A DNA stretch of 38,907 bases from Bacteroides sp. (GTDB taxonomy: Bacteria; Bacteroidota; Bacteroidia; Bacteroidales; Bacteroidaceae), in assembly GCA_015060705.1 (NCBI GenBank), contig SUXY01000026.1, positions 2,440-41,346 of the forward strand. The letters are read 5' to 3'. The notes beneath the pieces were generated by a model, which saw only the letters and a list, made by a program, of their open reading frames with translations, searched no databases and had not been told where the DNA came from. Shown piece after piece: positions 14,021 to 24,495 of the stretch. Made by a program: the position numbers and the translations under genes. Within the stretch, counting starts at the first letter, position 1; each line of letters begins with the position of its first letter.

Positions 14021-15451
14021 ATGATGAAGATACAAGCGACACGTATTCAATGGATAAAGTTTGCCGTAGTGTTGGTGCTATGGCTCATTTTCTTGCTATG
14101 GTTGAAAAGTTGGTTGGGATTGGTAGTGGTTCCATTTATTTTTGATGCCTATATCACCAAGAAGATACCTTGGACATGGTGGAAGAATTCGAAGAATGAA
14201 ACCGTTCGAAGTGTAATGAGCTGGGTGGATGCCATTGTCTTTGCTTTGGTAGCGGTTTATTTTGTGAATCTGTATTTCTTCCAGAATTATGTGATTCCTT
14301 CCTCTTCGTTGGAAAAGTCGTTGTTGGTAGGCGATTATTTGTTTGTAAGCAAGGCTAGCTATGGTCCTCGCGTTCCGCAAACTCCACTCCACATGCCGTT
14401 GACGCAACATACTTTGCCGGTTTTGAATACCAAGTCGTATTTGGAATGGCCCCAATGGGACTACAAGCGTGTAAAAGGTTTTGGCGAAGTACAACTTAAT
14501 GATATTGTGGTCTTCAACTTCCCAGCTGGTGATACCGTAGCAGTCAATGTACCGGCAGAGGATATTTATCGGTTGAGTTATCAGGCTGGGAAGGAATTGA
14601 CTAAGCCTGTAGATATGACAACCATGAATGCCGAACAGCAGCGTATGGTGTATGACCATTATTATAAGGTAGGTCGTCAATACATCAACGAAAACAAGCA
14701 GATGTTTGGTGAAGTAATCAGTCGTCCGGTAGACCGTCGTGAAAATTATGTGAAGCGTTGTGTGGGCTTGCCTGGACAAACGTTGGAAATCAAGGACCGA
14801 ATCGTTTATTTGGATGGAGTAGCCAATAAGGAACCGGACAATGTGGAATACCGTTATTTGGTGAAGGTTCACAAACCGATTTCAGATGATTTGGCACATG
14901 AATTGGGAATTAGTCAAGAGGACTTGGCTTATTACTTTGTTGATGCCAAGACCTATAATATGCCACTTACTCCTAAAACTAAGGAGGCATTATTGGGTCG
15001 GAAGGATATTGTTGTATCCATTGAAGATGTGCCGGGAGATGATGCTGGTGGTCTTTATCCGGTGAATAAGCAAACGGGATGGACAACAGACAACTATGGT
15101 CCTGTTTGGATTCCAAAGAAAGGAGAAACCATTGATTTAACTTTGGATAATTTGCCTATTTATGAACGATGCATTCATGCATACGAAGGCAATGATTTGC
15201 AAGTGAAAGAAGGTAAGATTTACATCAATGGACAAGAAACGGACAGCTATACATTCCAAATGGATTACTATTGGATGATGGGAGATAATCGTCATAATTC
15301 TGCAGACTCCCGTTTTTGGGGATTTGTACCGGAAGACCACATTGTAGGTAAACCAATTTTCATTTGGCTGTCTTTGGATCCGGATAGAGGTTGGTTGGAT
15401 GGAAAGATTCGTTGGAATCGCCTATTCACTTGCGTAGACAATATTAAGTAA
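14021..15451 (+). CDS. lepB: Signal peptidase I (active), LepB
   Basis: Membrane serine protease that removes signal peptides from exported proteins. The 476-aa protein has N-terminal membrane segments about 12-42 and 70-88, then box B IPSSSLEKS with the catalytic Ser96, box D YVKRCVGLPG with Lys245, and box E GDNRHNSADSR near the C-terminus. It is much longer than E. coli LepB (324 aa) because of inserts between boxes B and D (about 115-240) and between D and E, common in Bacteroidota. The start is ATGATG directly after the dapB stop; either ATG is possible. It is the likely general housekeeping SPase I of the three lepB-type genes here. Confidence 0.95.
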   Translation: MMKIQATRIQWIKFAVVLVLWLIFLLWLKSWLGLVVVPFIFDAYITKKIPWTWWKNSKNETVRSVMSWVDAIVFALVAVYFVNLYFFQNYVIPSSSLEKSLLVGDYLFVSKASYGPRVPQTPLHMPLTQHTLPVLNTKSYLEWPQWDYKRVKGFGEVQLNDIVVFNFPAGDTVAVNVPAEDIYRLSYQAGKELTKPVDMTTMNAEQQRMVYDHYYKVGRQYINENKQMFGEVISRPVDRRENYVKRCVGLPGQTLEIKDRIVYLDGVANKEPDNVEYRYLVKVHKPISDDLAHELGISQEDLAYYFVDAKTYNMPLTPKTKEALLGRKDIVVSIEDVPGDDAGGLYPVNKQTGWTTDNYGPVWIPKKGETIDLTLDNLPIYERCIHAYEGNDLQVKEGKIYINGQETDSYTFQMDYYWMMGDNRHNSADSRFWGFVPEDHIVGKPIFIWLSLDPDRGWLDGKIRWNRLFTCVDNIK

Positions 15452-15455
15452 AGGA

Positions 15456-16352
15456 ATGAAAATTCGAATTCCCATTTGGATAAAAGTTTTGATGACAGCA
15501 TTACTTCTTGTATTGCTGGTCAAAACTTTTGCCTTTACTTCTTGTTCTATTCCTTCAACGGGTATGGAAAACTCCTTGTATCAAGGCGAGAAGGTATTGG
15601 TAAACAAATGGAGTTACGGATTACGTCTTCCTTTTACATCTTTCCATTTCTTGGCGAGCAAGGCAAAGAGAGGGGATATTGTTCTTTTTAACAATCCGGT
15701 TCCTTCTGAACAAGAAACTCCGGTTTTTACTCGTGGGCTTTTTATTAGCCGATGTGTAGGTACACCGGGCGATACCTTGATGCTGAATAAAGAATTGATG
15801 GTTACCGGTCAGAAAGTGCTAAGTCCTGATAGCAAGCAGCTTTATACTTATCCATATCAGGTGGAGGATACTTTACAATGTGCTATGCATGAGTTAGGGA
15901 TCGAAGAAAATCTGTTGGTAGGTTATTCGGAAGGGCGATATGTGCGTAGTTTCAGTCATTATGAATTTTATTTACTGAAGCAAAAACTAGGTGCATCCTT
16001 CGAACTACATTCGGTACTTAATAATGACACGACTGAGAGCCATCCATTCGTGATTCCTGCCAAGGGAAAAGCGGTTAAAGTATATCCGTGGAATATGACT
16101 TTGCTTTGTAATACCATTTTGCGTCATGAAGGTCGTCAGTCGGCCGTGAAGAACGACACTTTATGGGTAGATGGAAAGCCCGTCAGTTCTTATACATTCA
16201 AGAAGGATTATTACTGGATGGCTTCCAATAATCCGGTAAACTTGGCCGATTCCCGTTTGTTCGGATTGGTTCCGCACGATCATTTGATAGGACGGGCATC
16301 CTATATCTGGTATTCTTCCCGAAAAGAACGAATCTTTCAATCCGTACAATGA
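15456..16352 (+). CDS. Catalytically dead LepB-like paralogue
   Basis: A 298-aa membrane protein plainly homologous to signal peptidase I: one N-terminal membrane helix (about 8-28), then box B as IPSTGM, box D as FISRCVGTPGD, and a C-terminal box E as ASNNPVNLADSRLFG. The catalytic serine position is Gly36 (PSTG where LepB has PSxS), and the catalytic lysine is Ser98 (FISRC in place of YVKRC). Box E has also lost its GDNR sequence. Hydrolysis by the Ser/Lys mechanism therefore looks impossible unless Ser34 substitutes. The frame is intact and sits 4 bases after lepB, overlapping the next gene by ATGA, so it is not decaying. A structural partner or regulator of LepB is a reasonable guess. Confidence 0.85.
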   Translation: MKIRIPIWIKVLMTALLLVLLVKTFAFTSCSIPSTGMENSLYQGEKVLVNKWSYGLRLPFTSFHFLASKAKRGDIVLFNNPVPSEQETPVFTRGLFISRCVGTPGDTLMLNKELMVTGQKVLSPDSKQLYTYPYQVEDTLQCAMHELGIEENLLVGYSEGRYVRSFSHYEFYLLKQKLGASFELHSVLNNDTTESHPFVIPAKGKAVKVYPWNMTLLCNTILRHEGRQSAVKNDTLWVDGKPVSSYTFKKDYYWMASNNPVNLADSRLFGLVPHDHLIGRASYIWYSSRKERIFQSVQ

Positions 16353-17035: not shown

Positions 17036-17872
17036 ATGGTAAAACAAAACGCAATTAAAGTTTTTGAAGAAAAGAAGGTTCGTACCCTTTGGGATAGCGA
17101 AACCGAAGAATGGTATTTTTCCGTAGTGGATGTTGTGGCTATATTGACAGACAGTGAAAATCCGAGACGGTATTGGAGTGACTTGAAACGGAAGCTGGCT
17201 AAAGAGGGAAGTCAGTTGTACGCAGAAATCGTACAACTGAAAATGCTTTCGTCGGACGGTAAGTATTATAAGACCGATGTAGCCACTACCCAACAACTTT
17301 TCCGCCTCATCCAATCCATTCCTTCACCTAAAGTCGAACCATTCAAACTATGGATGGCACAAGTAGCCAAGGAACGTCTTGACCAAATGCAAGACCCGGA
17401 ACTTTCCATTAAACAGGCCATGGAAGACTACAAGCGATTGGGATATTCGGACAATTGGATCAATCAACGCTTAAAGAGCATCGAAATCCGAAAGGAATTG
17501 ACCGATGAGTGGAAACGTCGAGGATTGCAGGAAGGGGTACAGTTTGCTACTTTGACCGACATTATTTATCAAAGTTGGGCGGATAAGACTGCCAAGGAAT
17601 ACAAACAGTTCAAGGGTTTGAAGAAAGAAAACCTACGAGACAATATGACTAACAAGGAACTTGTGCTTAACATGCTTGCCGAACTTTCGACCAAGGAAAT
17701 ATCGGAGGCTACTCAGCCGGAAACATTTGACTACCATAAGGATGTGGCAAAGCGAGGTGGGAATATTGCTCGTGAAGCCCGTTTGAGGTTGGAAGAAGAA
17801 ACGGGAATACCTGTTATATCTCCGCTTAGTGCAAGAGATTATTTGCAGATAGAGAATCAAGCAGAAGATTAA
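17036..17872 (+). CDS. Bro-N / DinD-like protein (phage antirepressor-type)
   Basis: 278 aa with an N-terminal Bro-N domain (about 1-110; IKVFEEKKVRTLWDSETEEWYFSVVDVV and YWSDLKRKL), the DNA-binding fold of BRO and phage antirepressors. The C-terminal part (about 120-278) matches chromosomal DinD-like proteins: RLGYSDNWINQRLKSIEIRKELTDEW, then GGNIAREARLRLEEETGIPVISPLSARDYL. E. coli DinD is SOS-induced and inhibits RecA; whether that applies here is unknown. It follows the wbqC-like gene by 51 bp with its own -7 box. Such genes often travel with phage or islands, but no integrase or phage gene is nearby. A short gene remnant and repeats follow it. Confidence 0.85.
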   Translation: MVKQNAIKVFEEKKVRTLWDSETEEWYFSVVDVVAILTDSENPRRYWSDLKRKLAKEGSQLYAEIVQLKMLSSDGKYYKTDVATTQQLFRLIQSIPSPKVEPFKLWMAQVAKERLDQMQDPELSIKQAMEDYKRLGYSDNWINQRLKSIEIRKELTDEWKRRGLQEGVQFATLTDIIYQSWADKTAKEYKQFKGLKKENLRDNMTNKELVLNMLAELSTKEISEATQPETFDYHKDVAKRGGNIAREARLRLEEETGIPVISPLSARDYLQIENQAED

Positions 17873-17979: not shown

Positions 17980-18013
17980 TGGGTATAGATATACAAGCGA
18001 ATGTATAATTATC

Positions 18014-18112
18014 GTTTAAGGTAAAAGACCACCTTGTTTTTTAAAACACGATGGTCTTTTACCTTAAACGCCGCCAACCTTTTTTAAAAGACGATGGCTT
18101 TTTTCCTTAAAC
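18014..18112. repeat. Long hairpin plus degenerate third copy
   Basis: GTTTAAGGTAAAAGACCA (18014-18031) and its exact reverse complement (18052-18069) are 18-bp arms around a loop that itself holds GTTTTTTAAAAC. The right half (18037-18069) is repeated with a few changes at 18080-18112 (TTTTTTAAAAGACGATGG and on). A third half-copy next to a full hairpin suggests duplication of a small element. The hairpin could end transcription from the Bro-N gene in either direction. Confidence 0.6.
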
Positions 18113-18302: not shown

Positions 18303-18381
18303 CTAAGGGAAAAATAAGGAATAACTAAGACAAAACTAAGGAATTTTATTTGGTGGTTCGTTGGCGTGGGTTTTACCTTTA
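18303..18381 (+). promoter_or_regulatory. Phased CTAAG operator and promoter of the first propeller gene
   Basis: Units CTAAG (18303), ATAAG (18314), CTAAG (18325) and CTAAG (18336) stand at exact 11-bp steps. Eight bases later comes the -33 box TTTG (18349-18352), then 21 bp, then TACCTTTA (18374-18381), a 7-of-8 match to the -7 consensus. The layout, one site per helical turn ending just before -33, is that of PhoB/OmpR-type activator sites. The same layout recurs at 20577-20654. The membrane-bound winged-helix regulator at 19485-20501 is the obvious candidate to bind it. This promoter also shows that the gene must start at 18416, not earlier. Confidence 0.75.
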
Positions 18382-18415
18382 CGGCAAATCTTTAGATAAT
18401 AGTAAAATAAAATCC

Positions 18416-19513
18416 ATGAATGATAGACAATTTTTAACTTGGTTGGCAGGTTACTTTTTAGTATTGCTTACATCGGTTTGCTTGTTCTCGTGCGACTTGA
18501 ATAATGCCCATGCCGAGTCATCCCGTTCACAGGTGGATGATTATCCGTTGTTGGAAAGTGTTGAAATCCCCATCGATACGGTGCTTTTCCGTTATGCTAC
18601 TTATTTCCGGGTACAAGGTGATATAGTTGTGATTTTCGATCTTCACAATTCCGATTATTATTGTCATACCTTTATCTATCCCGATTTCAAATATATCTCG
18701 TCGTTTGGCAAACGGGGAGAAGGTCCTAATGAAATTTTGATAGCTGATAATATTCGCTGGGCAGGAGAGGAGGAAATGTGGGTATTGGACAACACCAAGA
18801 ATCGGATGACCCGTTATAGTGGTATCGCTCGTGGAAAGATGCCGAGACTGGAGGAGCATGTTAAGTTGGAAAAAACCTTGATGCGTGCTTTGGATTTTGA
18901 TGTCTATAACCAGAATCAGGTGGTGATTCCCGATTATTCGGGCGAGAAGCGATTTTCTTGGGTGGATCTTCCTTCGGGAAAGCTTCATCATAAATGGATG
19001 GATATTCCGATGGAGAACAAGACCATTCTAAAAAATAGCCCACATGCAGCAGCTGCTGGTTGGCGTAGTTTCATGGCATTTACTCCCAATAAGAAACATT
19101 TGGTAACAGTCAATCAGTTTGCCGACCGTTTAGATATTTATCAAGTTGCTGATGGGACACTTGTGACGACTATCGGTTCGGGAAATAAAGAACCTAGGTT
19201 TGAAATAACTCCCAAAGGTTATGGTATTCCAACGGGTGGTATTTGTCATTATGACGTACAAGTAACCAATCGCTATATTTATACCATTTACGACGGCCGT
19301 TCATTCAAAGAAACGCAAGGGTTAGGAAGCGGATATAAACAAGGTGGCCAGTTGTTACGTATATATACGCACAAAGGGGAATTGCTGAAAGGCTATAAAC
19401 TTGACCGTTTCATTACAGGTATTTATGTAGATGAGACAACGGGTATACTTTATGGTTTGGACGTAAATGCTGACGAACAGGTTGTCAAGTTTCCGGAGTT
19501 TCGTCTTCCTTGA
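18416..19513 (+). CDS. 6-bladed beta-propeller lipoprotein (TolB-like), first copy
   Basis: 365 aa: signal peptide with lipobox LFSC (Cys26), then a repeat-rich beta protein of the Bacteroidales 6-bladed propeller/TolB-like type. Characteristic pieces are FRVQGDIVVIFD, the loop SSFGKRGEGPNEI (family form G-x-G-P-x-E), MWVLDNTKNRMTRYS and IYTIYDG. Such lipoproteins probably sit in the outer membrane; function is not established. The frame is open to 18350, but the promoter at 18349-18381 would then be inside the gene, so the ATG at 18416 is chosen. The last 29 bases overlap the end of the convergent regulator gene. It is probably activated through the CTAAG repeats upstream. Confidence 0.8.
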   Translation: MNDRQFLTWLAGYFLVLLTSVCLFSCDLNNAHAESSRSQVDDYPLLESVEIPIDTVLFRYATYFRVQGDIVVIFDLHNSDYYCHTFIYPDFKYISSFGKRGEGPNEILIADNIRWAGEEEMWVLDNTKNRMTRYSGIARGKMPRLEEHVKLEKTLMRALDFDVYNQNQVVIPDYSGEKRFSWVDLPSGKLHHKWMDIPMENKTILKNSPHAAAAGWRSFMAFTPNKKHLVTVNQFADRLDIYQVADGTLVTTIGSGNKEPRFEITPKGYGIPTGGICHYDVQVTNRYIYTIYDGRSFKETQGLGSGYKQGGQLLRIYTHKGELLKGYKLDRFITGIYVDETTGILYGLDVNADEQVVKFPEFRLP

Positions 19514-20501
19514 TCGTTTTGGTCAGTTTGTATCCTTTGCCTCGTTCATAAAGAATTTGGTATTGTGGAAAATTCTTCAGGTCATTGCGGAGTATTGATA
19601 GATTTTGGTTTAAACGATTACCAACAACATTTGAGTCCTCTTTCTCCGGATTTTCCCAAAGAACTTTTTCTATTTGTACACGTGGAATGAATGTATCTAT
19701 ATCTTTTGCCAATAATTGAATGATAGAAAAAGTCATGGGAGTAGTTCTGAGCATTTTTCCTTGAATATAGACTTCTTTATTCTCATGGTTTATATAGATT
19801 TCTTTTTCTGCTGTTATAGTAGAATTCTTGGTTGTTTGCGTTGCAAGATTTGTTTCTAATGAATTGTCTTTCTTTTTAGAAAAATAGTAAAGTGAGGCAA
19901 TTCCTAAATTGGTTATCATAAATAAAACATAAATCCAAGGGGATGTGTATTTAAAATACATGATTAGGTTGCAATCCACCCATCCTTGTACGGCTGCCGT
20001 TTCTTTTGCGTCGATATATATTTTAGGAGAAGCAATGGTATTCTCGAAAGAGGAAAAATCTTTTTCTGTCGAGTGAGCTACATTGTTATAATGATAGATA
20101 ATCATAGTTTTACCTTCAAGGCCTGCTTTACTTAATTCCTCATGGAAAATTGCATTGAAGTCATGAGGATTAAGGGGATTGGTTTTTAGTAGCATGTATT
20201 GTTCTGTCAACTGGATAGCCTTGTATATTTCTATACTATCTTTGAATTCAAATTCTTCTAGACCTTGTTCTGTCTGTATATTGACATGAGTAACCTTTTT
20301 GTTGGAAGGGGTACCAGATGAACTGATCCGTTCTTTGTTGATTCGATTATTATAATCAATAATAATGCTTTCTTGGAAGGAATTGTCAATAACTATACAG
20401 ATATTCTTATATGCATTATATTGCATCAAAAAAAAGATTATCATATTTATAAGAATGACAATACCGAGAAATATCATTGTTATTTTTACTTTCTTTTTCA
20501 T
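19485..20501 (-). CDS. Membrane-anchored winged-helix transcription regulator (ToxR-like topology)
   Basis: 338 aa with membrane segments at about 7-27 and 188-208, a non-cytoplasmic domain of about 160 residues between them, and a C-terminal OmpR/PhoB-type winged helix at about 236-328 (LRTTPMTFSIIQLLAKD, RVQIEKVLWENP, NVVGNRLNQNLSILRNDL, GKGYKLT). No receiver domain, so it is a one-component regulator that would sense something in the periplasm and bind DNA from the membrane, as ToxR or CadC do but with two membrane passes and the DNA-binding part at the C-terminus. It lies between the two promoters that carry 11-bp-phased CTAAG repeats, the spacing used by PhoB-family proteins, and is divergent from the first NVEALA gene. 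A -7 box (TATATTTG, 20530-20523) precedes it. Ligand unknown. Confidence 0.8.
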   Translation of the reverse strand: MKKKVKITMIFLGIVILINMIIFFLMQYNAYKNICIVIDNSFQESIIIDYNNRINKERISSSGTPSNKKVTHVNIQTEQGLEEFEFKDSIEIYKAIQLTEQYMLLKTNPLNPHDFNAIFHEELSKAGLEGKTMIIYHYNNVAHSTEKDFSSFENTIASPKIYIDAKETAAVQGWVDCNLIMYFKYTSPWIYVLFMITNLGIASLYYFSKKKDNSLETNLATQTTKNSTITAEKEIYINHENKEVYIQGKMLRTTPMTFSIIQLLAKDIDTFIPRVQIEKVLWENPEKEDSNVVGNRLNQNLSILRNDLKNFPQYQILYERGKGYKLTKTIKEDETPET

Positions 20502-20522
20502 GTCTGTATATACTTATCACTG

Positions 20523-20530
20523 CAAATATA
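20523..20530 (-). promoter_or_regulatory. -7 box of the regulator gene
   Basis: TATATTTG on the minus strand, 21 bases before the start codon. The -33 position is AT-rich without a clear TTTG. The CTAAG repeats at 20577-20614 lie just upstream, so autoregulation is possible. Confidence 0.5.
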
Positions 20531-20576
20531 GCAAATAACAAACAAAATTTCTACGTTTTAAAACCTAATTGTAAAA

Positions 20577-20654
20577 ATAAGGCATATCTAAGGGTGGACT
20601 AAGATAAAACTAAGGATAGAAATTTGTGCCTGTTTGCACTTAGGGGTACATTTG
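20577..20654 (+). promoter_or_regulatory. Phased CTAAG operator and promoter of the NVEALA operon
   Basis: ATAAG (20577), CTAAG (20588), CTAAG (20599) and CTAAG (20610) are spaced by exactly 11 bp. After an 8-bp gap comes TTTG (20623-20626), then 20 bp, then TACATTTG (20647-20654): a perfect Bacteroidota promoter. CTAAGAYAAAACTAAGGA is shared with the repeat block at 18325. The transcript would begin near 20661, about 20 nt before the first NVEALA ATG. Confidence 0.8.
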
Positions 20655-20680
20655 CTCAGTGAATTTTTAATAAAAGAAGT

Positions 20681-20920
20681 ATGAAAAATTTAAGTATTGT
20701 TTGTGTCGTTGTAGTAGCTTTTTGGATTGGAAAGTGTACTCAAAAAAATGAAAAGTTTACTGATTTATTGTTTGAGAAGAATGTAGAAGCGTTGGCAGGG
20801 GTAGACGATGATAGGTATAAATATTGCTATGGTTCTGGAAAAGTAGATTGCTATGATGGAACAAAAGTAGAAAGACAGAGTACGGTATGGGGGCTCGGTG
20901 ATAATATAGAAACAGAATGA
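20681..20920 (+). CDS. NVEALA-family precursor peptide, first copy
   Basis: A 79-aa secreted peptide precursor. A hydrophobic N-terminus (about 4-17), a charged linker, the family motif NVEALAG at 34-40, then a 40-residue C-terminal part rich in Asp, Tyr and Gly with two cysteines, C49 and C57. The ALA in the motif fits the A-x-A rule of signal peptidase I, so cleavage after Ala39 would free a 40-residue peptide with one possible disulfide. NVEALA proteins are known in Bacteroidales only as a family name; I know of no function. Its stop overlaps the start of the DUF1573 gene (ATGA), and a strong promoter with phased CTAAG repeats precedes it. Confidence 0.8.
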   Translation: MKNLSIVCVVVVAFWIGKCTQKNEKFTDLLFEKNVEALAGVDDDRYKYCYGSGKVDCYDGTKVERQSTVWGLGDNIETE

Positions 20921-21783
20921 GAATATTTTATTTTCTGTTGATTCTCTCTTGCTTTTGTTCTTGTCAGGAATCGAAAGAAGAAGCAATGTCCCGTTTAGTG
21001 AAAGAATGGAAAGGGAAGGAAGTGAAGTTTCCGACTCGTTCGGTCTTTACCATTCAAGGTAAGGATACGGTGGATTTTGAGTTTGCTAATGCTGATTATA
21101 AGGTGATAACATATATCGATTCGGTAGGATGTGCCAGTTGCAAACTTCAGCTTCCTCGTTGGAAAGCATTGATGGCAGAAGTAGATTCGTTGACGGATAC
21201 TAACATTCCGTTCTTGTTCTACTTTCATCCGAAGGATATGAAGGATCTACGTTATCTGACTCGTCGGGATAATTTCATTTATCCAATTTGCTTCGATAAG
21301 GAGGATGAATTGAATCAACTGAATCATTTTCCCTCCGAGATAGCTTTGCAGACCTTCTTGTTGGATAAGGACAACAGGGTAGTTGCTTTGGGAAATCCTG
21401 TTCTCAATCCCCGGATAAAGGATTTGTATTTGGAGGTGATAAAGGGCAACAGTGAGACAACTCAGAAAGAAAATGTAACTTCTGTTTCTGTAAACCGCAT
21501 GGTTGTGGATTTTGGCAATTTCCCACAATCGGAGAAGCAAAGTGCCAGTTTCATGTTGACCAACATAGGAACCGGTCTGTTCGTGATACAGGATATCATT
21601 ACTTCTTGTGGTTGTACCAAGGTGGAGTATAGTAAAGAACCTGTTCGTCCCGGTGAAACATTGGAGGTGAAAGTGATTTACGAGGCCGAAGAAACTGGAC
21701 ATTTTGATAAAGTAGTAACGGTATATTGTAATGCTAAAAACTCACCTATAAGTTTGAGAGTGAAAGGAACTGCACTTTTATGA
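20917..21783 (+). CDS. Thioredoxin-fold plus DUF1573 lipoprotein
   Basis: 288 aa. The signal ends in a Cys-rich lipobox stretch (ILSCFCSC; C12 or C16 lipidated). Residues about 35-165 look like a thioredoxin-type fold with CASC (C72, C75) in the place of the CxxC active site, after ITYIDSVG. Residues about 185-288 are a DUF1573 immunoglobulin-like domain with the usual SCGCT (C231, C233) and PVRPGETLEVKVIYEAEETGHF. The fusion suggests a periplasmic or surface thiol-handling protein, perhaps acting on the cysteine pairs of the NVEALA peptides. That substrate is my inference. Translation is coupled to the NVEALA gene by ATGA overlap. Confidence 0.8.
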   Translation: MRIFYFLLILSCFCSCQESKEEAMSRLVKEWKGKEVKFPTRSVFTIQGKDTVDFEFANADYKVITYIDSVGCASCKLQLPRWKALMAEVDSLTDTNIPFLFYFHPKDMKDLRYLTRRDNFIYPICFDKEDELNQLNHFPSEIALQTFLLDKDNRVVALGNPVLNPRIKDLYLEVIKGNSETTQKENVTSVSVNRMVVDFGNFPQSEKQSASFMLTNIGTGLFVIQDIITSCGCTKVEYSKEPVRPGETLEVKVIYEAEETGHFDKVVTVYCNAKNSPISLRVKGTALL

Positions 21784-21940
21784 CTTTCTTTTTTCTCCCT
21801 ACTAATTCTCTCTAAAAAAGATAGGAGGTTAAACCAATGCAAAAATAAGAATTAAAAAGAAAAGGAGCAATGCGTTTGCTTGTCTGCTGAAAGGATAGAT
21901 GCAGAAACTAACTAAGTATTTAATTAAAATCGAAAGTATT
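21784..21940 (+). other. Intergenic stretch before the second NVEALA gene
   Basis: About 157 bp, A/T-rich, without a clear promoter or terminator; TTTG at 21875-21878 has no matching -7 box. A single CTAAG occurs at 21911, not phased. The second NVEALA gene may be read from the 20623 promoter. Confidence 0.35.
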
Positions 21941-22204
21941 ATGAAAAAGAATGTAATGAAGATTGCTTTTATGGCTGCATTTGCTGTAGTTGCTGGTTAT
22001 GGTGTATCTAATTCTCAACAAACAGAGGTAATGTCTGATTTGATGGCTGCTAATGTAGAAGCGTTGGCTTTGAGTGATCCGGAAGCAAATGAGAATGGAT
22101 GCGCTAGAGCAGAAGACCTTTGTTCTGTTTTAGTGATTTATTCTGATGGTACATGGGGTGAAGATTTTTTTTATGATTATACAAAAGTACCTGGTTGGCT
22201 ATAA
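21941..22204 (+). CDS. NVEALA-family precursor peptide, second copy
   Basis: An 87-aa precursor starting at the ATG at 21941; an in-frame ATG at 21899 would add 14 residues ahead of an otherwise typical KK-start signal, so it is not chosen. Hydrophobic segment about 7-22, spacer, then NVEALA at 38-43, and a 44-residue tail with C54 and C61, several acidic and aromatic residues and the ending KVPGWL. As in the first copy, ALA forms an A-x-A site and the tail has two cysteines six to seven residues apart, but the tails share little else. Different cargo behind one motif is typical of precursor families. It lies upstream of a propeller gene and a dedicated signal peptidase. Confidence 0.8.
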   Translation: MKKNVMKIAFMAAFAVVAGYGVSNSQQTEVMSDLMAANVEALALSDPEANENGCARAEDLCSVLVIYSDGTWGEDFFYDYTKVPGWL

Positions 22205-22229
22205 TTCTTGAAAGTTTTTAATTAAATAT

Positions 22230-22358
22230 TGTGTCATAATGAAATCTGCTATCAGAAAGTAATCCCATTAAGTGCAAAGCAAATAATCTGAATGATGTAT
22301 AATGTTCTTTCGCTGTACTCTTAATGATTAAAAGACAGTTATTTTTCATTATGACACA
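22230..22358. repeat. 15-bp inverted repeats bounding a 99-bp non-coding spacer
   Basis: TGTGTCATAATGAAA (22230-22244) and TTTCATTATGACACA (22344-22358) are exact inverted copies. The spacer holds no gene and no clear promoter on either strand. The structure fits a small non-autonomous element with terminal inverted repeats, an invertible segment or a large hairpin. No obvious target-site duplication is seen. Confidence 0.6.
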
Positions 22359-22379
22359 TTATCTTGTTGAAATTTTGAT

Positions 22380-23447
22380 ATGTGGAAAAAAGTATATATA
22401 AAGGTATGGATTGTGGCATTTATACTTGTAGCTTGCGAGCACAATGGAAATCCAAATTATGGTGAGGTTAAGGAATATTCATTAAAACATTCCTTTTGTG
22501 GTGAACTGATGATGACATCAGGAAGGATGCAGTTGGTTGATTCCTTTTTGGTTATTGTGTCTCATGAACAAGATAAAATCTGTTCAATATATGAGATAGG
22601 GGATGGGGATAAAGTAAAAGTAATTGCAGATTATGGTGCTATTGGTGTGGGGCCAAAAGAATTTGTACGCCCATTACTAACTGGAGCATATAGAAATGAA
22701 TTTACATTGAATGAAATCAATACACGTGAATTGGCATTACTTTCCATAGAAAAATCACAAAAGGGAATATTTGTGAAAGAAAAGTCAAGGTTGAAAGCTC
22801 CCTATAAACCTGCCAAAGGCGAGTTGGTGTTGTCTGATATTTGTTTCACGAGATTGGATGATGAACATTTTGTTTCAATTACTTCATCAGGTAATGGTTG
22901 TTTCTTTACTCTTTCTGATCGATTTCTTCAACCAATTTTACGTTTTGGTGATTCTCCAATAATGGAAGATCTTTCTCCAATCGCTTCTCGAAATCGTCTT
23001 GGAGGAAGTCTTGCAACATTTGAAGGTACGATGGTTTATGCAGCAAGTAAATTGCCTTATATGGCATCTTATAGTTGGGAGAAAGGTACAATGAAGAAAA
23101 ATTGGAGTTTTTTCTATGACGAAACAAATTATGCTGTATCCAATGGTGATTTGTTGTTTGATAGAGAAAAAGCAATAGGGCCATTGCTGGATTTGAAAGT
23201 GGATTCAGAATACATTTATGTATGTTATTTAGATCAATTGTTGGGCGAGTATGATTTCTATGATACAAAGAAATCTTGTTCGGATAAAATTTTAATATTT
23301 GATCATCAGGGTAAAAAGCATGCCGTAATTCATTTAGACTGTAGGATAAATGAAATGGTGGTCGATAGGGAAAGAGGTTTTTTATTAGCTATAACTCAAG
23401 AACCTGATATGTCATTGGTTAAATTTCAATTACCAGAGGGATTGTAA
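22380..23447 (+). CDS. 6-bladed beta-propeller lipoprotein (TolB-like), second copy
   Basis: 355 aa with a lipoprotein signal (FILVAC, Cys19) and the beta-propeller pattern of the first copy: MQLVDSFLVIVSHEQDKICSIYEI, the G-x-G-P-x-E loop as GAIGVGPKEFVRP, FVSITSSGNGCFF, YIYVCYLD and the ending FLLAITQEPDMSLVKFQLPEGL. Likely anchored in the envelope. It follows the 22230-22358 repeat element and is 2 bp upstream of the third signal peptidase gene. Base composition is more A/T-rich than neighbouring housekeeping genes. Function unknown; pairing with an NVEALA gene in both halves of the cluster suggests a receptor or scaffold for the peptide. Confidence 0.78.
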   Translation: MWKKVYIKVWIVAFILVACEHNGNPNYGEVKEYSLKHSFCGELMMTSGRMQLVDSFLVIVSHEQDKICSIYEIGDGDKVKVIADYGAIGVGPKEFVRPLLTGAYRNEFTLNEINTRELALLSIEKSQKGIFVKEKSRLKAPYKPAKGELVLSDICFTRLDDEHFVSITSSGNGCFFTLSDRFLQPILRFGDSPIMEDLSPIASRNRLGGSLATFEGTMVYAASKLPYMASYSWEKGTMKKNWSFFYDETNYAVSNGDLLFDREKAIGPLLDLKVDSEYIYVCYLDQLLGEYDFYDTKKSCSDKILIFDHQGKKHAVIHLDCRINEMVVDRERGFLLAITQEPDMSLVKFQLPEGL

Positions 23448-23449
23448 TT

Positions 23450-24316
23450 ATGTCAATAATGATGCGGAAAGATAAATGGAACAAAATATTGGAAAGAATT
23501 TGGAAAGTCTGTTTCTGGATTTCGGCTTTCTTCATTCTTTGGGTTACACTCCAAGTCACGACATGGACTTCCTTTCGCGTACCTTCCCATTCCATGTATC
23601 CTGCTTTGATGCCAGGCGATTATATTTTGGTAAACAAATGGATGATGGGAGCCCGTATTTTCGATGTTTGGGATGCGATAGATGGTAAGGAGGTGGAAAT
23701 AAGCCGGTTGCCGGGTATCAGGAAAGCGGAGCGGAACGATGTATTGGTGTTTCATTATCCTTATCCGGATAGGCACGACAGCCTTTCGATGGATATGCTG
23801 CTTTATTACGTGAAACGTTGTATCGCCTTGCCTGGGGATACGGTGGAAATTAGAAAAGGAAGTTACTGGATAAACGGAACGAGAAAAGATAGGCGATGGA
23901 CACAAAGGGGCTTAGGAATGGAACCTTCATCCGGGGATGAACGGCAGTGGAGTGCGGCATTAGGGTGGACGGTACAACAGTTGGGACCTTTATTGGTTCC
24001 AGGTCGAGGATGTCAGATAACAATGGATACGTTGGAAGTGAAGAAATATGGTCGGCTGATTGCATGGGAACAGAAGAAACCATTAACGGTCCGAAATGGA
24101 CATGTTTATTTGGGCGATAGCTTGATACAAAGCTATCGTTTCAGAGAAAACTATTATTTCATGGGTGGTGACAATTTGGATAATTCGAAAGATTCCCGTT
24201 ATTGGGGATTGGTTCCTGAAGTTTATATAGTTGGAGTAACAACGAAGATTTGGAAATCGGTTGACAAAACTACTGGGAAAATGCGTTGGAATAGGATAAT
24301 GAAAAATATAGAATGA
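23450..24316 (+). CDS. Signal peptidase I of the NVEALA cluster
   Basis: 288-aa S26 signal peptidase. One membrane helix (about 17-37), box B RVPSHSMYPALMPGD with catalytic Ser48, box D YYVKRCIALPGD with Lys122, box E MGGDNLDNSKDSRYWG. All catalytic parts are intact, unlike the dead paralogue at 15456. It is shorter than the housekeeping LepB at 14021 and lacks the big insert. The gene follows the propeller by 2 bp and overlaps the next small gene by ATGA, so it belongs to this operon. It probably cleaves the NVEALA precursors after EALA, where the A-x-A rule is met; this is inferred. The first of three possible ATGs (codons 1, 4, 5) is used. Confidence 0.88.
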   Translation: MSIMMRKDKWNKILERIWKVCFWISAFFILWVTLQVTTWTSFRVPSHSMYPALMPGDYILVNKWMMGARIFDVWDAIDGKEVEISRLPGIRKAERNDVLVFHYPYPDRHDSLSMDMLLYYVKRCIALPGDTVEIRKGSYWINGTRKDRRWTQRGLGMEPSSGDERQWSAALGWTVQQLGPLLVPGRGCQITMDTLEVKKYGRLIAWEQKKPLTVRNGHVYLGDSLIQSYRFRENYYFMGGDNLDNSKDSRYWGLVPEVYIVGVTTKIWKSVDKTTGKMRWNRIMKNIE

Positions 24317-24495
24317 TGGATGATTTGTTGAAAGAAAAGGATAGGATAAGGGAAGAATTTACTGAATTGTTGGATACGTATTACAATGGTTCCTTTTCAA
24401 AAATGATGTGTGACTATATTCGTTCTACAGGAATGACGCTGCAGGAGGTAGAAGAACTGCTGAAGGCAATGAAAAAAGAAGTGGATGCAAGTTGA
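24313..24495 (+). CDS. Small protein resembling the C-terminal tail of BlaI/MecI repressors
   Basis: 60 aa, starting ATGATG inside the stop of the signal peptidase gene. The stretch FTELLDTYYNGSFSKMMCDY, followed by TGMTLQEVEELLKAMKK, closely recalls the C-terminal dimerisation and linker region of BlaI/MecI/CopY repressors (family form YFNGS...LSxEELEEI). The winged-helix DNA-binding half is absent, and no truncated copy precedes it. It is either a free-standing dimerisation peptide that could titrate a BlaI-type repressor, or an unrelated helical protein. No blaR1 or blaI gene is in the window. Confidence 0.55.
   Translation: MMDDLLKEKDRIREEFTELLDTYYNGSFSKMMCDYIRSTGMTLQEVEELLKAMKKEVDAS

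Follow-up and report, generated by a model that had tools for sequence, protein, structure and literature searches.

The locus at positions 18303-24495 of a Bacteroides sp. contig raises the question of whether its two NVEALA precursor genes and the genes around them form a single peptide system and, if so, how such a system would operate. The window, i.e. the whole stretch of DNA analysed, comprises 38,907 nucleotides (positions 2440-41346 of contig SUXY01000026.1, here C68, of assembly GCA_015060705.1, which totals 2.95 Mb in 118 contigs and is 88% complete). A preliminary description of the region had suggested that the precursors are exported, cut after EALA by a local peptidase, disulfide-linked, bound by propeller lipoproteins and sensed by a membrane regulator. 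Our analyses indicate that this gene set is a recurring, modular and apparently undescribed peptide-propeller system in Bacteroidales, in which the variable peptide core is inherited together with the propeller encoded downstream, and in which a distinct class of precursors, hereafter founders, goes with the regulator and with operator repeats. The complete chain, with exported disulfide peptides, cognate binding lipoproteins and a founder pair acting as peptide-sensing control, is the account that we tentatively favour, with somewhat less than even confidence.

The gene set was followed in 60 genomes including that of the window, 36 of them from the genus and 24 from elsewhere in the order, using a simple open reading frame (ORF) script for gene calling and home-made profiles seeded from NVEALA loci. 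NVEALA genes occur in 21 of these genomes (20/36 in the genus and 1/24 elsewhere in the order), with 8 matches on 4 contigs in the window genome and up to 19 in a single genome of the genus. Neighbourhood maps display tandem NVEALA-propeller pairs along with the regulator, a thiol protein, a type I signal peptidase (SPase), transglutaminase-like proteins and Wzy_C/TPR proteins. Recurrence of the set around NVEALA genes elsewhere, on which the preliminary description had staked its proposal, was thus found, and extends over Phocaeicola, Bacteroides, Parabacteroides and Petrimonas. A second scan was anchored on the thiol protein, using a profile derived from 14 NVEALA-linked thiol proteins, so that the sample is not blind; the best 80 of 155 relatives were kept, which favours closer relatives. 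Within 6 kb of these best 80 thiol genes, NVEALA genes were detected in 77 cases, propellers in 74, transglutaminase-like ORFs in 49 (by a broad profile), regulators in 46, SPases in 33 and Wzy_C proteins in 15. Thirteen of the 80 contigs had been seen in the first set; without them, NVEALA genes lie near 64 of 67 thiol genes, and such repeats were removed from the second-set correlation, repeat and recount figures given below. Of the 37 full-length regulator matches (>100 bits) and the 24 matches to the SPase clade of these clusters (>330 bits) present in the 60 genomes, 26 and 16, respectively, are located within 10 kb of an NVEALA gene, as read by eye from listings, much of this co-location being by construction since 22 regulators and 12 SPases were profile seeds from NVEALA loci. 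NCBIfam returned no match for the NVEALA proteins and propellers.

Both NVEALA precursors of the window are encoded on the forward strand, one at 20681-20920 (PF14055, 39.6 bits) and one at 21941-22204 (51.6 bits), and both exceed the cut-off of 27 bits, in agreement with their initial assignment. The second, a variable precursor, is followed by a propeller lipoprotein gene (22380-23447, forward strand) from which it is separated by an inverted repeat of 29 nt (83%) with a 99-nt loop at 22216-22372; the segment 22205-22379 that holds this repeat folds better than 200 shuffles (z -2.9). Two propeller lipoproteins had been announced: that at 18416-19513 (forward strand) is well above the PF15869 cut-off (174 versus 29.2 bits), while the one at 22380-23447 falls below it (24.7 bits) and is propeller-like by an iterated profile only. 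Across genomes, the similarity of cores, i.e. the part of the precursor beyond the NVEALA end, follows that of the downstream propellers with r = 0.612 (77 pairs, 19 genomes), shuffling within genomes giving 0.027 +/- 0.035 (0/2000). A second set of 99 new pairs from 51 genomes, for which genome groups were assigned by hand, gave r = 0.632 against a shuffled value of 0.205 +/- 0.059 (0/2000), and r = 0.585 after near-identical cores had been removed; the sequences in these tests are related, and permutation was done within genomes. The leader does not behave in this way, with r = 0.068 (37/2000) in the first set and -0.045 (1654/2000) in the second. Since the propeller is co-inherited with the core whereas the leader, which is closer to the core, follows weakly or not at all, the NVEALA end separates a shared part from a propeller-linked part, and core and downstream propeller represent cognate pairs. 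Three pairs were even found near-identical in different genomes (core 0.93-0.98, propeller 0.90-0.98). The proposed link between precursors and propellers is strongly supported by this co-inheritance, to which linkage could contribute; contact between core and propeller is inferred from it.

Precursors located next to the regulator form a class of their own, with a core that reads roughly C-x-G-x-G-x-V-x-C-(P/Y)...KV...; a simple version of this pattern is present in 49 of 62 unique regulator-adjacent precursors and in 37 of 226 others. The corresponding propellers are also set apart, 53 matches scoring at least 208 bits and the following ones 169, 136 and lower. A regulator was found within 4 kb of 40 of the 46 unique founder-type propellers, compared with 94 of 341 other propellers. 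The founder propeller occurs either directly 3' of the founder (e.g. L131, L132 and L139) or across the regulator (e.g. L136, L159 and the window), and 26 of 50 regulator-founder places have one of these two positions filled, none having both (>220 bits); in the remaining 24 no founder propeller is found there, some of these places being at contig ends or having other genes intervening. In the window, the founder precursor (20681-20920) is separated from its propeller of this P1 subfamily (18416-19513) by the regulator gene (19485-20501, reverse strand), yet both are preceded by the same operator. We take this retained, shared operator of a parted founder and founder propeller to be the meaning of the common operator mentioned in the preliminary description.

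This operator is real. On the forward strand, four TAAG-type direct repeats 11 bp apart (18303-18341, starting at 18303, 18314, 18325 and 18336) lie 5' of the founder propeller and three CTAAG direct repeats with the same spacing (20588-20615, starting at 20588, 20599 and 20610) lie 5' of the founder gene. Exact copies of the pattern ACTAAGAYAAAACTAAGGA start at 18324 and 20598; when up to 3 mismatches are allowed, the window contains 3 matches for 0.03 expected. Its 18-base core, allowing up to 2 mismatches, is confined to these two sites in the 2.95-Mb, 88% complete assembly. Both repeat trains end at an equal distance from what we take to be a Bacteroides-type promoter (TTTG-N20/21-TAnnTTTR), namely TTTG-N21-TACCTTTA at 18349-18381 and TTTG-N20-TACATTTG at 20623-20654, both on the forward strand. 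Repeats of 11 bp are likewise enriched 5' of regulator-adjacent precursors elsewhere.

The regulator consists of an N-terminal helix with a transmembrane (TM) segment, a predicted periplasmic domain at ca. 69-176, a second TM-like helix and a C-terminal winged helix of the OmpR/PhoB type at ca. 233-330. In the structural model, long helices at 2-56 and 188-222 carry the hydrophobic stretches. The DNA-binding domain was identified by both profile (Trans_reg_C, 26.4 bits for a cut-off of 26.2) and fold; a PDB sequence search gave only weak matches, to response-regulator DNA-binding domains, and PDB fold matches fell on the DNA-binding part with none on the periplasmic part. The protein, earlier designated as ToxR-like, differs from ToxR/CadC in its arrangement, the winged helix being C-terminal after two TM-like segments.

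The founder gene overlaps that of the thiol lipoprotein (20917-21783, forward strand) by an ATGA start/stop at 20917-20920. The latter had been described as a thioredoxin/DUF1573 lipoprotein, and this assignment is borne out: the DUF1573 Ig-like domain scores 106 bits (cut-off 26.1) and the N-terminal part, which carries a GCASCK motif, is thioredoxin-like by fold, with Foldseek matches to ResA (2f9s) and a Bacillus oxidoreductase (4nmu) at a target TM-score of ca. 0.7 for a model with a pLDDT of 90.7. Pfam gave no thioredoxin match for it, and no PDB sequence relative was retrieved for the thiol protein or the founder-type propeller at E 0.01. Its proposed substrates would be the cores, of which 221 of 266 unique ones contain an even number of cysteines; this fits with the putative disulfides assumed initially.

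Precursor anatomy was examined in 266 precursors selected with a motif pattern. The block from -13 to -1 is conserved, with N, E, A, L and A at -6, -4, -3, -2 and -1 reaching 0.98, 0.99, 1.00, 0.97 and 0.98, respectively; beyond it the core is variable except for E at +3 (0.85), and has a median length of 40 aa. A median of 24 residues separates the end of the hydrophobic core of the signal from the NVEALA end, which is too far for an ordinary signal-peptide cut; these two medians exclude 9 of 128 called NVEALA ORFs that had no clear motif. A glutamine occurs in this linker in 194 of 253 precursors, at a median of 6 residues after the hydrophobic core, and forms an [ASGTC]Q pair in 141 of 253; glutamine frequency is 9.8% in the linker, 0.8% in the motif block and 2.2% in the cores. 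Both window precursors follow this organization, the founder having its glutamine at aa 21, its NVEALA end at aa 39 and a 40-aa core with 2 Cys, and the variable precursor a glutamine at aa 26, the NVEALA end at aa 43 and a 44-aa core with 2 Cys.

These features bear on which enzyme would cut after EALA, a role that had been given to the local peptidase. This SPase (23450-24316, forward strand) is intact as stated earlier (TIGR02227, 105.8 bits for a cut-off of 47, with Ser48 and Lys122 kept) and belongs to a clade in which 12 aligned cluster SPases share 41-57% identity with it, compared with 29 and 25% for the two lepB genes located at 14021-16352. The clade (>330 bits) occurs in 15 of 20 NVEALA genomes and in 1 of 16 others of the genus (Fisher test, p 3.8e-5, from counts also taken by eye). 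There is about an even chance that processing involves two proteases, ordinary SPase I cutting before the glutamine, ca. 18 residues upstream of the NVEALA end, and another periplasmic protease later cutting after EALA, in which case the cluster SPase would be a paralogue devoted to the first step. The enrichment of linker glutamine, present in both window precursors, points in this direction, and according to PMC10653852 a glutamine rule at the SPase I site applies to ca. 71% of the SPase I substrates in Bacteroidetes; with such a signature in the linker, two-step processing is at least as likely as a single cut. Conversely, conservation of AxA at -3/-1 of the NVEALA end reaches 98-100%, albeit in a set picked by motif and hence partly by construction, and such a motif makes a textbook site for SPase I; the SPase clade also tracks NVEALA genomes. 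Two cuts, by SPase I before Q and then after EALA, are thus plausible, while cleavage at EALA by the local peptidase is still unproven: the nearly invariant AxA is in its favour, and the linker glutamine and the 5 of 20 NVEALA genomes in which the clade was not found speak against it. The second lepB-like gene (15456-16352) has its catalytic Ser changed to Gly and its catalytic Lys to Ser, a similar second copy being present beside lepB in many genomes.

Exporter genes of the resistance-nodulation-division (RND) type were found on the same strand within 7 kb of 16 of the 33 unique cluster SPases having at least 5 kb downstream, two of these matches being weak (L058, 311 bits, another RND; L073, 113 bits, a piece at a contig end). 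A set composed of adaptor, RND, outer-membrane factor (OMF) and RND genes adjoins an NVEALA or SPase cluster in 7 of 8 genomes, six of the eight having been picked for an existing SPase-RND neighbour, and with 6 to 18 RND matches per genome in these eight, proximity in a single case proves little. In the window genome, this set is located on contig C60, beside two propellers and BlaI genes. The corresponding locus (L210, C60 3-13413) contains two RND genes, an OMF, an adaptor-sized gene, two BlaI genes, a BlaR1-type M56 peptidase and two propellers. The BlaI-tail-like protein of the window is a 60-aa ORF (24313-24495, forward strand) that starts in an ATGA overlap with the SPase gene at 24313-24316; both start/stop overlaps reported at first are thus real by coordinates. 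Its resemblance to the C-terminal part of BlaI was confirmed, over positions 66-114 of the PF03965 profile only and below the cut-off (18.2 versus 22.6 bits), and since it has no DNA-binding part it was rejected as a working regulator and as a BlaI protein proper. A full BlaI gene occurs directly 5' of the RND adaptor gene in two loci (L081 and L210), one of them in the window genome, so that a junction of this kind is the more likely origin of the window ORF, which is probably a remnant. Export by a double-glycine/C39 route was also rejected, AxA and not GG preceding the core; among the C39 matches listed, none lies within 20 kb of an NVEALA match, the nearest on one contig being ca. 50 kb away (compared by eye).

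Taken as an exported-peptide system of Bacteroidales, the locus would work as follows. In each precursor, a Sec signal or anchor would be followed by a shared pro-block with NVEALA at its end and then by a Cys-containing core. What the precursors share would serve as a tag for common machinery, namely signal peptidase I and probably a second cut at EALA. The thiol lipoprotein would set the disulfides of the core; a transglutaminase-fold protein, a Wzy_C protein and an RND exporter, which are not adjacent in the window copy, may complete the machinery. The core would be the mature product and the ligand of the propeller lipoprotein encoded alongside. Control would lie with a unit made up of the two-TM regulator, the founder precursor and the propeller specific to the founder (18416-19513), in which the regulator would bind the 11-bp direct repeats 5' of the founder gene and founder propeller and turn on the operon, most likely in response to founder peptide held by the founder propeller. 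The founder pair is thus probably a peptide-sensing control unit, and the variable core/propeller pairs would be effectors with matched binding proteins, for immunity or as receptors.

Several observations weigh against this scheme. Profiles for the regulator, thiol protein and SPase were built from genes beside NVEALA, so that co-location is partly by construction. Eleven of the 37 full-length regulators lie away from listed NVEALA genes, 3 of them adjoining a propeller without NVEALA; among propellers, 79 of 175 and 110 of 244 have no called NVEALA gene before them; and in 8 of 11 loci inspected a different membrane-type protein replaces the regulator. The SPase clade was not found in 5 of 20 NVEALA genomes, although incomplete assemblies may hide some of its members, and is thus a partner and no obligatory component. 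Linkage alone can make adjacent genes co-inherited, although the leader, which is closer still, does not follow. Regulator-adjacent regions contain exact 11-bp repeats in only 6 of 19 and 18 of 40 cases, repeats of 10 bp are in excess as well, and precursors away from the regulator have no excess of 11-bp repeats (10 matches in 6 of 74 regions, against a mean of 4.8 and a maximum of 15 in shuffles). Finally, in 15 loci that contain regulator, founder, founder propeller and thiol protein together, the founder core co-varies to the same extent with the sensor (partial r given the thiol protein, 0.52) and with the DNA-binding part of the regulator (0.51), which indicates inheritance as a block and gives no proof of contact. 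The search for sensor-specific co-variation was accordingly uninformative, both regulator parts correlating equally. The founder class and the 11-bp repeats back a link between regulator and precursor; sensing itself is not established.

Other readings of the same genes deserve consideration. The cores could be antimicrobial peptides and the propellers immunity lipoproteins, with a regulator that answers envelope stress or diet and no signalling at all. Such antagonism would fit with cores that are hypervariable and have cognate partners, with pairs in tandem, with near-identical pairs shared by different genomes, with up to 19 NVEALA matches in one genome and with the many propellers that have no precursor directly 5'. 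We nevertheless consider it unlikely, though worth serious attention, the founder core being conserved and tied to the regulator and to its own propeller, which would be odd for a mere toxin. The cores might instead stay on surface propellers, where the transglutaminase-like and Wzy_C proteins would attach them to glycan or protein as a surface decoration. The presence of such genes near 49 and 15, respectively, of the best 80 of 155 thiol genes, and lipoprotein signals recognised by eye on propellers and thiol protein, are compatible with this cell-surface assembly; the RND gene after 16 of 33 testable cluster SPases suggests release, and the window copy has no adjacent transglutaminase-like and Wzy_C genes, so it appears rather improbable.

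A role as metallophore-like peptides, binding a metal or cofactor and having the propellers as receptors, is the most improbable of these readings. It would account for small Cys peptides with nearby RND genes and propeller lipoproteins, and for the two loci in which a radical SAM cassette includes a Cys-rich peptide, while no common metal motif was seen in the cores and their even Cys counts fit disulfides. BT0662-BT0669 of B. thetaiotaomicron are also listed in a table of the iron stimulon, but their significance values there are 0.11-0.44 (PMC10434189). In that table, five genes of this stretch are annotated as O-antigen ligase, hypothetical, 6-bladed propeller, lepB and RND adaptor (PMC10434189); the gene kinds, compared by annotation, are similar to ours, and the portion used lists them as transcriptome entries, not as a system. 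The word NVEALA retrieved no paper in a full-text search of a library of PMC papers, related searches judged by titles and abstract starts gave nothing on such a system, and the string PF14055 occurs in five papers, by title four on malaria parasites and one on enzyme profiles, probably through Plasmodium gene tags.

Among known systems, the streptococcal blp/com regulons share with the peptide-propeller system a conserved peptide beside a regulator, variable peptides with one leader, direct repeats at helical-turn spacing 5' of the controlled gene and partner genes adjoining the variable peptides. They differ in that NVEALA cores are not preceded by a double glycine and have no listed C39 match nearby, and in that the regulator is here a single membrane-spanning protein with a C-terminal PhoB-type domain, the partners are propeller lipoproteins and the envelope is Gram-negative. 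Polymorphic toxin-immunity arrays likewise combine a shared N-terminal part, a variable C-terminal part, a cognate neighbour gene and unpaired partner genes; the mature part is here a median of 40 aa long with Cys pairs, no toxin family was recognised and the partner is a propeller lipoprotein. With ToxR/CadC, the regulator shares the combination of winged helix, membrane anchor and periplasmic domain in one protein, the winged helix being N-terminal with one TM segment in ToxR/CadC and C-terminal after two TM-like segments here.

Additional observations were made in related loci and in the rest of the window. Loci L130, L134, L140, L143, L156, L163, L172 and L192 have a long membrane-type protein and a secreted-looking protein of ca. 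120 aa 5' of the thiol gene and no two-TM regulator; in L130 and L172, the two tested, the long protein is a TPR protein by Pfam and the ca. 120-aa protein has no Pfam match. A six-frame search for hidden NVEALA genes in 13 loci that have SPase or regulator and no called NVEALA gene gave no convincing precursor. Loci L044 (4215-7174) and L112 (8926-11965) encode an 80-aa Cys-rich precursor, a radical SAM protein with a C-terminal Cys cluster, a DUF4221 propeller and a CxxC lipoprotein of ca. 155 aa that looks thioredoxin-like by eye; these cassettes lie inside or beside clusters with thiol/SPase genes, their radical SAM proteins gave below-cut-off NCBIfam matches only, and the NVEALA core of L092 (3270-3593) resembles their Cys-rich peptides. 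A C10-family peptidase gene is located two genes 5' of the thiol gene in L207 (6827-8185), and a Bacteroidales-type thiol/NVEALA/propeller locus (L162) occurs on a contig labelled as a Lachnospiraceae metagenome-assembled genome, probably a binning error. In the window, a near-perfect hairpin of 28 nt with a 2-nt loop (18013-18070), possibly a terminator, lies between a Bro-N gene (17036-17872) and the operator, positions 936-1004 match the Bacteroidetes FopS sRNA family of Rfam, and a tRNA search found none.

These data turn NVEALA from an orphan family into a testable system, with a predicted start for the mature part, expected matches between cores and propellers, a candidate regulator with its repeats and a candidate exporter. 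Should the pairs prove to be toxins with immunity proteins, or signals with receptors, they would amount to an extensive and unstudied level at which the dominant bacteria of the gut interact. A bolder reading, which we regard as doubtful, is that of a Gram-negative counterpart of a pheromone-controlled peptide arsenal, in which a conserved, propeller-held founder peptide would be sensed across the inner membrane by the one-piece PhoB-type regulator, and this would switch on exported disulfide peptides with matched propellers as immunity proteins or receptors, released through RND; if true, it would constitute a new route by which Bacteroidales signal to, and compete with, their kin in the gut.

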